This document shows positions 6,951 through 10,726 of a DNA stretch of 14,801 nucleotides, piece by piece. Position 1 is the first letter of the stretch. Every line of letters starts with the position of its first letter. This stretch comes from Elusimicrobia bacterium HGW-Elusimicrobia-2. GTDB lineage: Bacteria; CG03. Below the pieces are notes generated by a model. The model was given only the letters and a program-made list of their open reading frames with translations, made no database searches and was not told where the DNA came from. The stretch lies in contig PHAM01000046.1 in the NCBI GenBank assembly GCA_002841685.1, positions 1-14,801 on the forward strand, in the 5' to 3' direction. Both the position numbers and the translations under genes were made by a program.

Positions 6951-7470
6951 ATGGAAGAGAAAGAATTCGTAGAAAGATTAAAAAAGGGGGATGAGGATGC
7001 CTACAGGGAGTTTATGGCGCTTTATAAAAACGCTGTTTACCGCATCATCCATTCTTTTTCGGGAATGGCTCCGGAAATTGACGATATCGCCCAGGATGTG
7101 TTTATCGCGGTATTCAGGAAAATCCATAAATTCCGCGGTAATTCCTCTCTTTCCACATGGCTTTACCGCGTTACGATCAATAGATGCAAGGATTATCTCA
7201 GGAAGAGGAGAACTGACACGGTAGAGTTGAGCGACAGTATCATCTCGCCGGGCGCGGATGTTTCGTAAACGCTATTGAACGAGGCCCGGGCCCGCAACCT
7301 GCTGGCGCAGCTCCCGGAGAAATTCAGGAGCGTTGTGATACTCCGTGAGATAGAGGCCATGTCATATGATGATATAGCCCGGACGCTTAAGATCCCTCTG
7401 GGCAGGGTGAAGATAATGCTCTTCAGGGCGAGAAAAAAAAATGAAGGAGGCCGCGTTAAATGGAATGTAA
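6951..7470 (+). pseudogene. ECF-family sigma factor, interrupted by an in-frame TAA
   Basis: The first part (6951-7268, 105 codons) is an ECF sigma region 2, with DDIAQDVFIAVFRKIHKF and STWLYRVTINRCKDYLRKRR. It stops at TAA 7266-7268. The same frame then continues at once through a normal region 4 (7269 onward), with LLAQLPEKFRSVVILREIEAMSYDDIARTLKIPLGRVKIMLFRARKK. A single G-to-T change (GAA to TAA) would explain the break. A second problem may follow: at an A9 run (7433-7441) the open frame continues to 7490 with an atypical tail, while a +1 shift gives KKMKEAALNGM ending at TAA 7468-7470, a far more usual ECF C-terminus. No good ribosome site precedes the second half. The gene may be a pseudogene, a sequencing error or a split/recoded sigma. 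The anti-sigma gene downstream is intact. Confidence 0.8.
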
Positions 7471-7897
7471 AAAATGCCTTTCGCTTTTAGGCGTATTCAA
7501 AGACGGTGAGTTGATCGGCGATGCTGCCTCTCCGGTAAAAAGCCATCTTGGAACATGCCCGGCCTGTTCCGCGGAACTGGAGGCCCTCTACGCCCTATCG
7601 GAGATCATAACTTCCATTAAAGCGCCCCCGCCCCCCGACGGTTTTGAAGATAATGTCATCAGAGCCATGAGGAAACCCGCGCGCCAATTCTCATTCATCC
7701 CGTCATTTACTCCGGCTTTTTTTTACCGCCCGGCGATGGCAATGGCCGTTCTTGCATTGGTCGTGGTCACCGGAGTTTTTTACGCGCGTAAAAATACCGC
7801 GCCGCCGGACGAGTCTTATGCGCAGCTTCTCATAAGCGACGCTGAATTGAGAGAGTTTGACAGCGATATACTGGACATCTTTTACGGCGAGATTTAA
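7460..7897 (+). CDS. Zinc-finger (zf-HC2/ZAS type) membrane anti-sigma factor
   Basis: This 145-aa protein has an N-terminal zinc-binding anti-sigma domain: C3/C6, then H29-x3-C33-x2-C36. A proline-rich linker (55-60) and a single membrane segment (about 92-109, MAMAVLALVVVTGVFYA) follow, ending in a short, acidic, probably extracytoplasmic tail. Such proteins hold their cognate ECF sigma at the membrane until a signal releases it. The ATG at 7460 follows AAGGAGG at 7443-7449. The start overlaps the end of the ECF sigma gene, the usual sigma/anti-sigma arrangement. The gene remains open although its partner is interrupted, which argues either that the lesion is recent or artefactual, or that the partner is still expressed in some form. 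The sensor tail matches no family I recognise. Confidence 0.85.
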   Translation: MECKKCLSLLGVFKDGELIGDAASPVKSHLGTCPACSAELEALYALSEIITSIKAPPPPDGFEDNVIRAMRKPARQFSFIPSFTPAFFYRPAMAMAVLALVVVTGVFYARKNTAPPDESYAQLLISDAELREFDSDILDIFYGEI

Positions 7898-7911: not shown

Positions 7912-8898
7912 ATGGCTACGGAACCGTCCCCATCACCCTACTCTATGAAAAATAAAGCGGTTATACTTTTCTCGGGCGGTCTGGACTCGGCGCTCGCCGC
8001 GAAGCTCACGGAAGATATCTTCGATCTTTCGGGCGTTGTTTTTTCCACTCCCTTTTCGCGGGCGAAACAAGAGGTGTTTGCCCTGGCTGAAAAGATGTCA
8101 CTTCCGCTGAAGCATATTTTTCTCGGCGAGGAATATTTTGAAATCATTTTTAGGCCTAAATTCGGTATGGGCAAGGGGATGAATCCCTGCCTGGACTGTC
8201 ACATAATGATGCTAAAAAAAGCGAAATTATATGCCATAGAGCTGGGCGCGGAATTTTTAATAACCGGTGAGGTGCTGGCTCAGAGGATGATGTCTCAGAA
8301 GAGCGGAGATCTTTTAAAAGCCGAGAAAGAGAGCGCGATGGACGGCAGGATCATCAGGCCGTTGTGCGGAGCGCTCCTGCCGCCCACGGAAGCCGAGAAA
8401 AAAGGGATCATTAAAAGAGAGGAGATGCTTTCCGTTTCAGGCAAAAGCCGTAAAACACAGTTTGAGCTGGCGGAAAAATACGCCCTCAGCGGCTTTGCCA
8501 CACCCGCCGGCGGATGTGTGCTCACTGACAAAATTTTTTCAAAAAGAATAAAAGACGCCGTCGTCCACGGCGAACTCGATCTTTTGAGGAGCCGTCATCT
8601 TATGACGGGCCGGCATTTTCGTCTTGAAAAAGGATCCAAGCTCGTGATTGCCCGTAAGGCTTCAGAAGATAAATTCCTCTCGGACAATGCCGGCGGCCTC
8701 ATAAGGATACTGCCGTCGGGGGCTCCCGGCCCCGGGGCGCTTCTTTCGGATATGCGCGACATTGACCTGGCGCTTTCCATAATCGCCAGATACAGCGGCA
8801 AGACGCATGAATTTATCATCCGCACTGCCGGCGGAGCGGACATCGTGCGAAAAGCCGAAGCCGCGGTCGAGGAAACCGTCAGAAAATATCTGGTCTGA
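7912..8898 (+). CDS. PP-loop ATP pyrophosphatase, ThiI/MnmA-like sulfur-transfer family
   Basis: This 328-aa protein has an adenylating PP-loop, SGGLDS (21-26). Also present are GMNPCLDCH (C93, C96), a GEVLAQRMMSQ segment, a basic segment SGKSRKTQ and TPAGGCVLTD (C202). The C-terminal part (about 228-328, from GRHFRLEKGSKLVIAR) looks like an NFACT-R-type RNA-binding or tRNA-associated region. This architecture matches an uncharacterised family usually annotated as a tRNA thiouridylase-like protein. tRNA thiolation is the likely role, but substrate and position are unknown. The three cysteines could be catalytic or bind an iron-sulfur cluster, as in TtcA/TtuA. The ATG at 7912 follows a GGAAG-type ribosome site 14 bases after the anti-sigma gene; an internal ATG at 7945 lacks one. 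It ends in a 20-bp convergent overlap with the minus-strand operon. Confidence 0.75.
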   Translation: MATEPSPSPYSMKNKAVILFSGGLDSALAAKLTEDIFDLSGVVFSTPFSRAKQEVFALAEKMSLPLKHIFLGEEYFEIIFRPKFGMGKGMNPCLDCHIMMLKKAKLYAIELGAEFLITGEVLAQRMMSQKSGDLLKAEKESAMDGRIIRPLCGALLPPTEAEKKGIIKREEMLSVSGKSRKTQFELAEKYALSGFATPAGGCVLTDKIFSKRIKDAVVHGELDLLRSRHLMTGRHFRLEKGSKLVIARKASEDKFLSDNAGGLIRILPSGAPGPGALLSDMRDIDLALSIIARYSGKTHEFIIRTAGGADIVRKAEAAVEETVRKYLV

Positions 8899-9148
8899 GA
8901 AGGCCGTCTTCTATGAGCTCGTTTGTGTCTTTGGCCTCTCTGCCTTTTGATTCAAAAAAAGTTTTTCGCGCTTTTTCGAGGAGCCGCTCTTTGAGCGCTT
9001 TTTCCTTTGCCTCTATTTCTTCAAGGGATGGCCGGGTGATCCCCGCCTGAGGCAGTAATTTGATCTCTGTTTTTCTGCGTTTCGCGTAGAAACTGATCCA
9101 CCACAGGAGAGCTATGAGAATAAAGAGCAGCCAGCTGCGTTTTTTCAT
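8879..9148 (-). CDS. Small single-pass membrane protein, unknown function
   Basis: This 89-aa protein is the last gene of the minus-strand operon. It has a short basic N-terminus (MKKR), one strongly hydrophobic segment at about 5-22 (WLLFILIALLWWISFYA), a basic stop-transfer KRRK, then a highly charged, probably helical or coiled stretch (about 42-75) and a C-terminal KDTNELIEDGLLRPDIF. Predicted topology is N-terminal anchor with the soluble part outside or inside undetermined. Its ATG overlaps the pdxJ stop by 4 bases (ATGA), matching the other junctions in this operon, which supports it being real. I do not recognise a family. Its 3' end overlaps the convergent PP-loop gene by 20 bases. 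Confidence 0.7.
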   Translation of the reverse strand: MKKRSWLLFILIALLWWISFYAKRRKTEIKLLPQAGITRPSLEEIEAKEKALKERLLEKARKTFFESKGREAKDTNELIEDGLLRPDIF

Positions 9149-9855
9149 AAGAGGAGTTTTTTCATGTCCCGGACGGCTTTATCAAGACCGGCGAAAAGAG
9201 CGTAGGCGATTATGCTGTGGCCTATATTGAGTTCGTTCATTCCCTTTATGCGCGCTATCGCGGTTGTGTTCTCGTAGTCCAGGCCGTGACCCGCGTTAAG
9301 GAGCAGGCCCTGTGTCAGGGCAAAAGCGGAAGCTTTTTTTATGCCCAGCAGTTCCTTCGCCCGCGCGGCTCCCCGCAGATTTGCGTATGAGCCTGTGTGG
9401 AACTCCACCGCGTCGGCCCCGAGTTTTTTTGACAGGGCGATAGCTTTTTCGGTTGCTTCTATAAAAAGGCTGACCCTGATGCCTTTTTTGTTGAAAAGAG
9501 GGATGATCTTTTTGAGGCGCCTTTCGTTTTTGAAGACATCAAGGCCGCCTTCCGTCGTGAGCTCTTTTCGTTTTTCCGGCACGATGCACACATCCGCCGG
9601 AGCGAGTTTTAGGGCGAAGTCCGTTATCCAGGGGCTCAGCGCCAGTTCAAGATTGAGTTTTGTTTTTATGTTTTTCTTTATAAGAATGCAGTCTTTCTCC
9701 TGTATGTGCCGCCTGTCCTCGCGCAGATGTATGGTTATGCCGTCGGCCCCGGCTTTTTCGCATATGAGAGCCGCCTTCAAAGGGTCGGGGTAAGCCGTAA
9801 AACGCGACTGTCTTATCGCGGCGACATGGTCCACATTGACACCGAGCAACGGCAT
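9145..9855 (-). CDS. pdxJ: Pyridoxine 5'-phosphate synthase PdxJ
   Basis: PdxJ condenses 1-deoxy-D-xylulose-5-phosphate with the aminoacetone-phosphate product of PdxA to give pyridoxine 5'-phosphate (DXP-dependent vitamin B6 pathway). The 236-aa TIM-barrel protein shows GVNVDHVAAIRQSR (5-18), ADGITIHLREDRRHI, PEKRKELTTEGGLDV, VSLFIEA, VEFHTGSYA, NAGHGLDYEN and ELNIGHSII, all strongly PdxJ-like. I chose ATG 9855, which places the conserved GVNVDH next to the N-terminus as in E. coli PdxJ. The longer open frame to 9954 only reads through the upstream micro-ORF in another frame. The start overlaps that micro-ORF stop by one base (TAATG), so translation is probably coupled. Confidence 0.96.
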   Translation of the reverse strand: MPLLGVNVDHVAAIRQSRFTAYPDPLKAALICEKAGADGITIHLREDRRHIQEKDCILIKKNIKTKLNLELALSPWITDFALKLAPADVCIVPEKRKELTTEGGLDVFKNERRLKKIIPLFNKKGIRVSLFIEATEKAIALSKKLGADAVEFHTGSYANLRGAARAKELLGIKKASAFALTQGLLLNAGHGLDYENTTAIARIKGMNELNIGHSIIAYALFAGLDKAVRDMKKLLL

Positions 9856-9941
9856 TACTTTATACCGACGACATATCTGACATACAGCCACAGCAGCACG
9901 GCGATCAGCCCGGCGGTGAGTTTTAAGTATGATTTTTTCAT
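9855..9941 (-). CDS. 28-aa membrane microprotein, CdaR/YbbR N-terminus-like
   Basis: This is a 28-codon ORF: a basic start (MKK), one hydrophobic segment (LKLTAGLIAVLLWLYV) and a short RYVVGIK tail before TAA. Its ATG overlaps the cdaA stop by 4 bases (ATGA) and its TAA overlaps the pdxJ ATG by 1 base (TAATG). It therefore exactly fills the gap between two genes whose other junctions are all overlaps. The hydrophobic segment resembles the N-terminal anchor of YbbR/CdaR proteins (typically a LKLLSLLLAxxLWLYV pattern), which regulate the diadenylate cyclase and often lie directly downstream of cdaA. No YbbR repeats follow. It could be a minimal CdaR-like partner, a remnant, or a coupling leader. 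Whether it is translated is inferred from position only. Confidence 0.6.
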   Translation of the reverse strand: MKKSYLKLTAGLIAVLLWLYVRYVVGIK

Positions 9942-10726
9942 GGCGCTGAGTCAAACTCTTTAACCCTGTAAAGGGCGACGAGTTCTTTTTTCAATTCCTC
10001 GCTTGAGATATTCCTTGTGAGTTTTCCCGCGCGGGCAAGTGAGATGGAGGAAGTTTCCTCAGATAAGACGATTGCCCATGCGTCCGACACCTCGCTGATT
10101 CCCACCGCGGCTCTGTGCCGCGTGCCCAGGATGCGCGAGGCTATTTCCTCCATCGTCAGGGGCATTATGCAGGAAGCCGCCAGCAGCCTGTTCCCTTTTA
10201 TAACCACAGCTCCGTCATGCAGAGGGCTTGTGGGATTGAATATTGACAGCATCAACTCCGACGAAACTTCCCCGTCTATTTTCATGCCCGTTTCCGTGTA
10301 ATTTTTCATTCCCATATTAAGTTCTATGACGATGAGGGCGCCCCATCCTTTTTTTTGAGCGTTTTCCATGGTTTCGATAATGGCGTTGATCCAGTCCGGT
10401 TTTATGCGGAACAGGAACCCCGCGACTTTTCCGCTGCCGAGTTTGGCCAGAAGAAAGCGCAGCTCCGGCTGAAAGACTATGACGATCGCCACCATTCCCA
10501 CAACCCACGCGCCCGAAAGGAGCCAGGACAGTGTGGTGAGTTTTAGAAGTTTTGAAAAAACTGTCAGAAAAACGAGGATGACAATGCCTTTGAAAATCGC
10601 TATGGCCCTGGTGCCCTTCAGCAGAGAGAGTATGTAGTATATGATAACCGCAGTTATAAGGATATCGGCGGCATGGCTCAAATAGCCCAGCCACACATCC
10701 CATGACAGGGGCAGATAATCAGCCAT
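9938..10726 (-). CDS. cdaA: Diadenylate cyclase CdaA/DacA (c-di-AMP synthase)
   Basis: This membrane enzyme makes the second messenger cyclic di-AMP from two ATP, a regulator of potassium and osmolyte balance and of envelope homeostasis. The 262-aa protein has three N-terminal membrane helices (about 18-36, 41-58 and 66-85). The DAC domain follows, with catalytic PLHDGAVVI (D171-G172-A173) and [12 protein letters not shown] (R203-H204-R205), both intact. The length and layout match CdaA rather than DisA or CdaS. Its ATG lies inside the folE stop region (8-base overlap, ATGGCTGA). It is followed immediately by a tiny membrane ORF where cdaR is common in other bacteria; glmM is not next here. 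A DNA-level promoter of its own is not evident. Confidence 0.95.

Follow-up and report, generated by a model that had tools for sequence, protein, structure and literature searches.

A conserved single-helix microprotein encoded directly downstream of cdaA and its probable relationship to the membrane helix of CdaR

The window analyzed here, i.e., the whole stretch of 14,801 nucleotides of contig PHAM01000046.1 (Elusimicrobia bacterium HGW-Elusimicrobia-2), contains a previously unannotated gene between cdaA and pdxJ which encodes a microprotein of 28 amino acids. The gene was confirmed to be real and conserved. There is good evidence from sequence comparison that its product is homologous to the N-terminal transmembrane helix of CdaR (YbbR) and does not merely resemble it by generic hydrophobicity. 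With considerable confidence we regard it as a helix-only CdaR, which would have lost the extracytoplasmic sensor and would pack on the membrane domain of CdaA as a small subunit.

Genomic Context of the Microprotein Gene

The microprotein ORF is located on the minus strand (9855..9941) and consists of 28 codons plus a TAA stop codon. Upstream lies cdaA (9938..10726, minus strand), encoding a membrane diadenylate cyclase of 262 amino acids (Pfam PF19293 CdaA_N and PF02457 DAC). The microprotein start is situated within the cdaA stop codon, and the resulting ATGA overlap (9938..9941, minus strand, read from 9941 to 9938) likely couples the translation of both genes. At the opposite end, the TAA (9857-9855) has one base in common with the ATG (9855-9853) of pdxJ (9145..9855, minus strand, 236 amino acids, PF03740). 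The initial annotation had described an ORF enclosed by an ATGA and a TAATG overlap, and this arrangement was confirmed from the sequence and the Pfam assignments of the neighboring genes. It had further stated that the pdxJ frame can be extended over the ORF. This is indeed possible from a TTG at 9954, and the extension is considered accidental, since it is not open in all relatives (exceptions are L004 and L005). Pfam and NCBIfam scans of the 28-residue ORF matched no family.

In the window, pdxJ is followed by an ORF of 89 amino acids (8879-9148, minus strand) with an ATGA overlap, one membrane helix and no Pfam match. Its counterparts in relatives of the phylum have a tail like LETxIExFxxxxxRYPxxLxELVEKGYLxxxP, reminiscent of pseudopilins. 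A sigma-factor-like frame (6951-7487, plus strand) is interrupted by an in-frame TAA (7266-7268), and a zinc-finger (anti-sigma-like) ORF at 7460 comes after it. The TAA is absent from G002 and G001 and is probably not a sequencing error, because it was also found in the matching, 91% identical stretch of G003.

Conservation within the Phylum

Within the window's phylum, 15 of 16 genomes carry cdaA, and the remaining one (G007, 69% complete) lacks both cdaA and the microprotein. Reading the DNA downstream of cdaA revealed a short ORF directly after it in all 15 cdaA-bearing genomes, mostly with a lysine-rich start and a motif near LKxxALxIAxxLWxYVKY; most of them have pdxJ as the next gene. 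A similar ORF with this motif follows cdaA in G082, a member of another group. The initial annotation had considered that a full-length YbbR gene might directly follow cdaA or that related genomes might carry frame-disrupting changes in the ORF. No such YbbR gene was found among the 15 cdaA-bearing genomes, and no frame-disrupting change in the ORF was seen across the phylum. The similar size, place and motif in all 15 genomes together with the frame-specific substitution pattern described below argue that the ORF is not a product of chance.

Relationship to CdaR

A profile (A1) was built solely from 16 helix-only microproteins (15 of the phylum and the one of G082) and used to search 290 whole genomes in six frames. 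Almost all matches outside the clade were the N-termini, i.e., the membrane helix, of long YbbR/CdaR ORFs, and for 29 of these outside matches cdaA is the immediately preceding gene or the fusion partner. PF07949 was detected in five of six scanned ORFs directly after cdaA and in seven of ten Pfam-scanned outside-clade ORFs without cdaA in the DNA read. One match, in G071 (contig C18), was judged to be a false positive after reading its surroundings, since the true microprotein gene of G071 follows cdaA on contig C14; a match in G432 (contig C24), from the search of the related groups described below, was judged likewise. Independently of the profile, the position behind cdaA was surveyed in about 60 other genomes; most of them have either an ORF that combines a helix of this kind with an extensive extracytoplasmic region, or no gene of this type. 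Homology rather than generic hydrophobicity is indicated, because a motif of about 20 residues retrieved one protein family from 290 genomes and at the right gene place. The resemblance to the YbbR/CdaR N-terminal anchor, noted initially from the single sequence, was therefore confirmed by the profile search.

The microprotein thus has the CdaR-type N-terminal transmembrane helix, as judged by this profile search in 290 genomes, and the gene place directly downstream of cdaA, while the extracytoplasmic YbbR domain is missing and almost no residues extend beyond the helix. As the defining domain is missing, the microprotein is not a member of PF07949. In accordance with the initial view that all YbbR repeats are lacking, PF07949 was found neither in the window's genome nor in any of the 16 genomes of its phylum, nor in the helix-only genomes tested from four further groups. 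The largest related group (G214 group) contains PF07949 in three of 198 genomes. One of these (G301) encodes the YbbR protein on a separate contig besides its microprotein, and in another (G385) YbbR is part of a 410-residue open frame which also contains CdaA.

A PDB sequence search with the helix returned no solved chain alike. The entry 9g69, although described as CdaA-DAC with GlmM, includes a long CdaA sequence.

Distribution and Origin

In total, 107 distinct helix-only loci with microproteins of about 22-47 amino acids were identified, in the window's phylum and also in four other groups of phylum level. Counterparts after cdaA, which the initial annotation proposed to look for in related genomes, therefore extend well beyond the 15 genomes of the phylum. 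The profile matched six of six genomes of the G082 group, five of five of the G252 group, two of three of the G130 group and 102 of 198 of the G214 group. In the latter, 104 places matched and 89 of them were read: 86 adjoin cdaA or are fused with it, at two, the stretch read contains glmM as the next gene but no cdaA, and one is false. In many relatives of other groups the microprotein gene is followed by glmM and then often by pdxJ. Where glmM comes next, the order cdaA-helix-glmM corresponds to that of the cdaA-cdaR-glmM operon in Firmicutes.

Among 40 genomes of the G214 group without a profile match, 30 are without any CdaA. The other ten comprise four with a helix missed by the profile (three of them fused), one with a CdaA-YbbR fusion and five with neither. 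Since five genomes retain CdaA without the helix, the latter is not indispensable. At four loci of family f231 (L263-L266 in G334, G338, G384, and G349), CdaA without a microprotein is followed by an apparent gyrB; they are a natural setting in which to ask if the helix can be dispensed with. In family f223 of the G214 group (e.g., G300 and G313), the sampled genomes are devoid of CdaA and of the microprotein, and this joint absence suggests a loss of CdaA-made c-di-AMP.

The CdaA phylogeny (FastTree, 199 proteins) was midpoint-rooted and has many long branches. In this tree, the 112 rows with a helix-only or fused-helix arrangement form one clade (SH-like support 95), with a single change between the helix-only and the YbbR types. 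The simplest reading, though not a proof, is that the YbbR repeats were lost once, in one ancestor, long ago.

Fusion of the Helix to CdaA

The helix is fused to the C-terminus of CdaA in at least four lineages. In G252, G295, G296, and G297 it forms the C-terminal end of a CdaA of 296-298 amino acids, and it is kept separate in their relative G294. Further fusions were found in G311, in G406 and G380, in G465, and in G368 and G381. According to the CdaA tree, from which the fusions of G368, G380, and G381 were left out, those of G295-G297 with G252, of G311, of G406, and of G465 are four separate changes. CdaA-CdaR fusions of some streptococci likewise join the CdaR helix to CdaA within a single chain, the order being the same (PMC10243994); these are large fusions, whereas here the helix alone is fused. 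The loci L090 (G188), L141 (G039), and L269 (G385) differ from the helix-only fusions in that CdaA carries a longer YbbR-type extension in one open frame of 410-465 amino acids in total.

For the natural fusion L161, AlphaFold2 predicts a helix at residues 274-294 (pLDDT about 66-77) behind a low-confidence linker (252-266), with a pTM of only 0.54 and no contacts readable from the model. In a PDB fold search with this model the best matches were CdaA/DacA cyclase domains, with about 140 residues aligned. The fused helix should enter the membrane with its N-terminus inside, because the C-terminal cyclase domain of CdaA is cytoplasmic, and the lysines agree with this orientation.

Selection and Conserved Helix Face

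Substitutions in the microprotein gene are biased toward synonymous changes, as the initial annotation had suggested to examine. For 55 non-overlapping pairs from all groups, a pooled pN/pS of 0.285 was obtained (317 synonymous and 320 nonsynonymous differences; binomial P 3e-53) in a test which assumes all changes to be equally likely, and the other two frames gave values of 0.60 and 2.28. Of six pairs in the window's genus, four had a dN/dS of 0.15-0.30, and the comparisons of G000 with G002 and G003 gave 0.49 and 0.65; all of these values rest on few changes and are noisy. The microprotein is under purifying selection at the protein level.

As judged from 113 distinct microproteins, conservation is highest at A0, W+4, K-7, L-1, N-11, and A/S-4; these positions lie mostly on one helical face, and the periodicity of the information profile peaks at 100-110 degrees. 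In the window this face comprises K7, A10, A14, and W18 (a small-xxx-small pattern plus Trp; codons 7-18, 9888..9923, minus strand), with K in 103, A/S in 107, A/S in 113, and W in 104 of the 113 sequences, respectively. When mutual information with average-product correction was used to look for covariation of the helix with CdaA, a set of 169 pairs (Neff 82), too small for a decision, gave no signal, the top pairs being spread over the membrane and DAC parts as by chance.

Discussion

CdaR and CdaA are reported to interact via their transmembrane domains (PMC10243994), and YbbR to interact with the membrane region of CdaA (PMC6368335). Given these reported contacts, a helix subunit residing on CdaA would best explain our observations, and the microprotein probably works like the membrane part of CdaR. 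Binding of the helix to CdaA, its topology and its effect on the cyclase activity are what we infer. For CdaR itself the mode of regulation is stated to be unclear (PMC8573169), with conflicting reports of a stimulation and an inhibition of the cyclase (PMC5207132). In the papers searched, nothing was found on YbbR together with pdxJ or on a diadenylate cyclase in Elusimicrobia.

We propose that, once all YbbR repeats were lost, the CdaR transmembrane helix persisted as a separate protein of about 28 residues and that it would be made together with CdaA through overlapping translation. On membrane insertion the lysine-rich N-terminus would stay inside, and the conserved A/S-xxx-A-xxx-W face may pack on the membrane helices of CdaA, so that the small subunit could shape or stabilize the cyclase, probably its dimer or oligomer. 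As the helix has no sensor, signal input would have to come from elsewhere, for instance from GlmM, whose gene adjoins the microprotein gene in many relatives.

The initial annotation left open whether the ORF encodes a minimal partner of CdaA or is the relic of a lost cdaR. The former is favored by the conservation over five groups, the purifying selection and the fusions, and "relic" holds true of the origin only. A decaying cdaR of which just the first codons are left, without function, would agree with the microprotein being an N-terminal piece of CdaR whose repeats are gone. It is nevertheless highly improbable: after a single loss at the base of the clade the piece was kept over several phylum-level groups with a conserved helix face and repeatedly fused to CdaA, and the selection seen in the pooled pN/pS acts on the protein, hence it is not decaying. 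Very improbable, too, is an ORF that hands ribosomes from cdaA to pdxJ or glmM and whose product is unimportant. The ATGA and TAATG overlaps of the window would suit such a coupler or leader, as would the 4-base overlap at 49 of the 107 distinct loci, but tight overlaps are missing at many others (at 24 loci the ATG is 10 or more bases away) and the downstream gene varies between pdxJ, glmM and others. Moreover, the conservation covers amino acids and not the overlaps alone, and the fusions contain no separate ORF to couple.

Single-helix microproteins function in many complexes, and the contact of this one with CdaA rests on inference, so that a free membrane microprotein which is merely co-expressed with cdaA and has another partner, e.g., an envelope or transport protein, has to be weighed as well. 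The natural fusions to CdaA, the co-absence with CdaA and the homology to the helix of a known CdaA partner make this unlikely. As a helix subunit of CdaA, the microprotein would resemble CydX, KdpF, and AcrZ, single-helix accessory subunits of a few dozen residues in larger membrane complexes. No sequence relation to these is claimed; here the helix is homologous to a part of a larger known regulator.

The CdaR of Firmicutes, the regulator of CdaA/DacA, resembles the microprotein in its place directly after cdaA, often before glmM, and, by profile, in its single N-terminal membrane helix. It differs by the PF07949 repeats of the extracytoplasmic part and by its size, with open frames of about 126-510 residues. 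We consider it somewhat probable that the conserved functional core of CdaR consists of nothing but the membrane helix, acting as a constitutive assembly subunit of CdaA, while the YbbR repeats would be an optional sensor that was discarded by one large radiation, some members of which then built the helix into CdaA.

The microproteins define a conserved family for which Pfam and NCBIfam hold no model. Helices without a sensor and helices fused to the cyclase are natural minimal constructs that may show which part of CdaR matters, and a peptide of about 28 residues makes the action of the helix alone accessible to direct testing.
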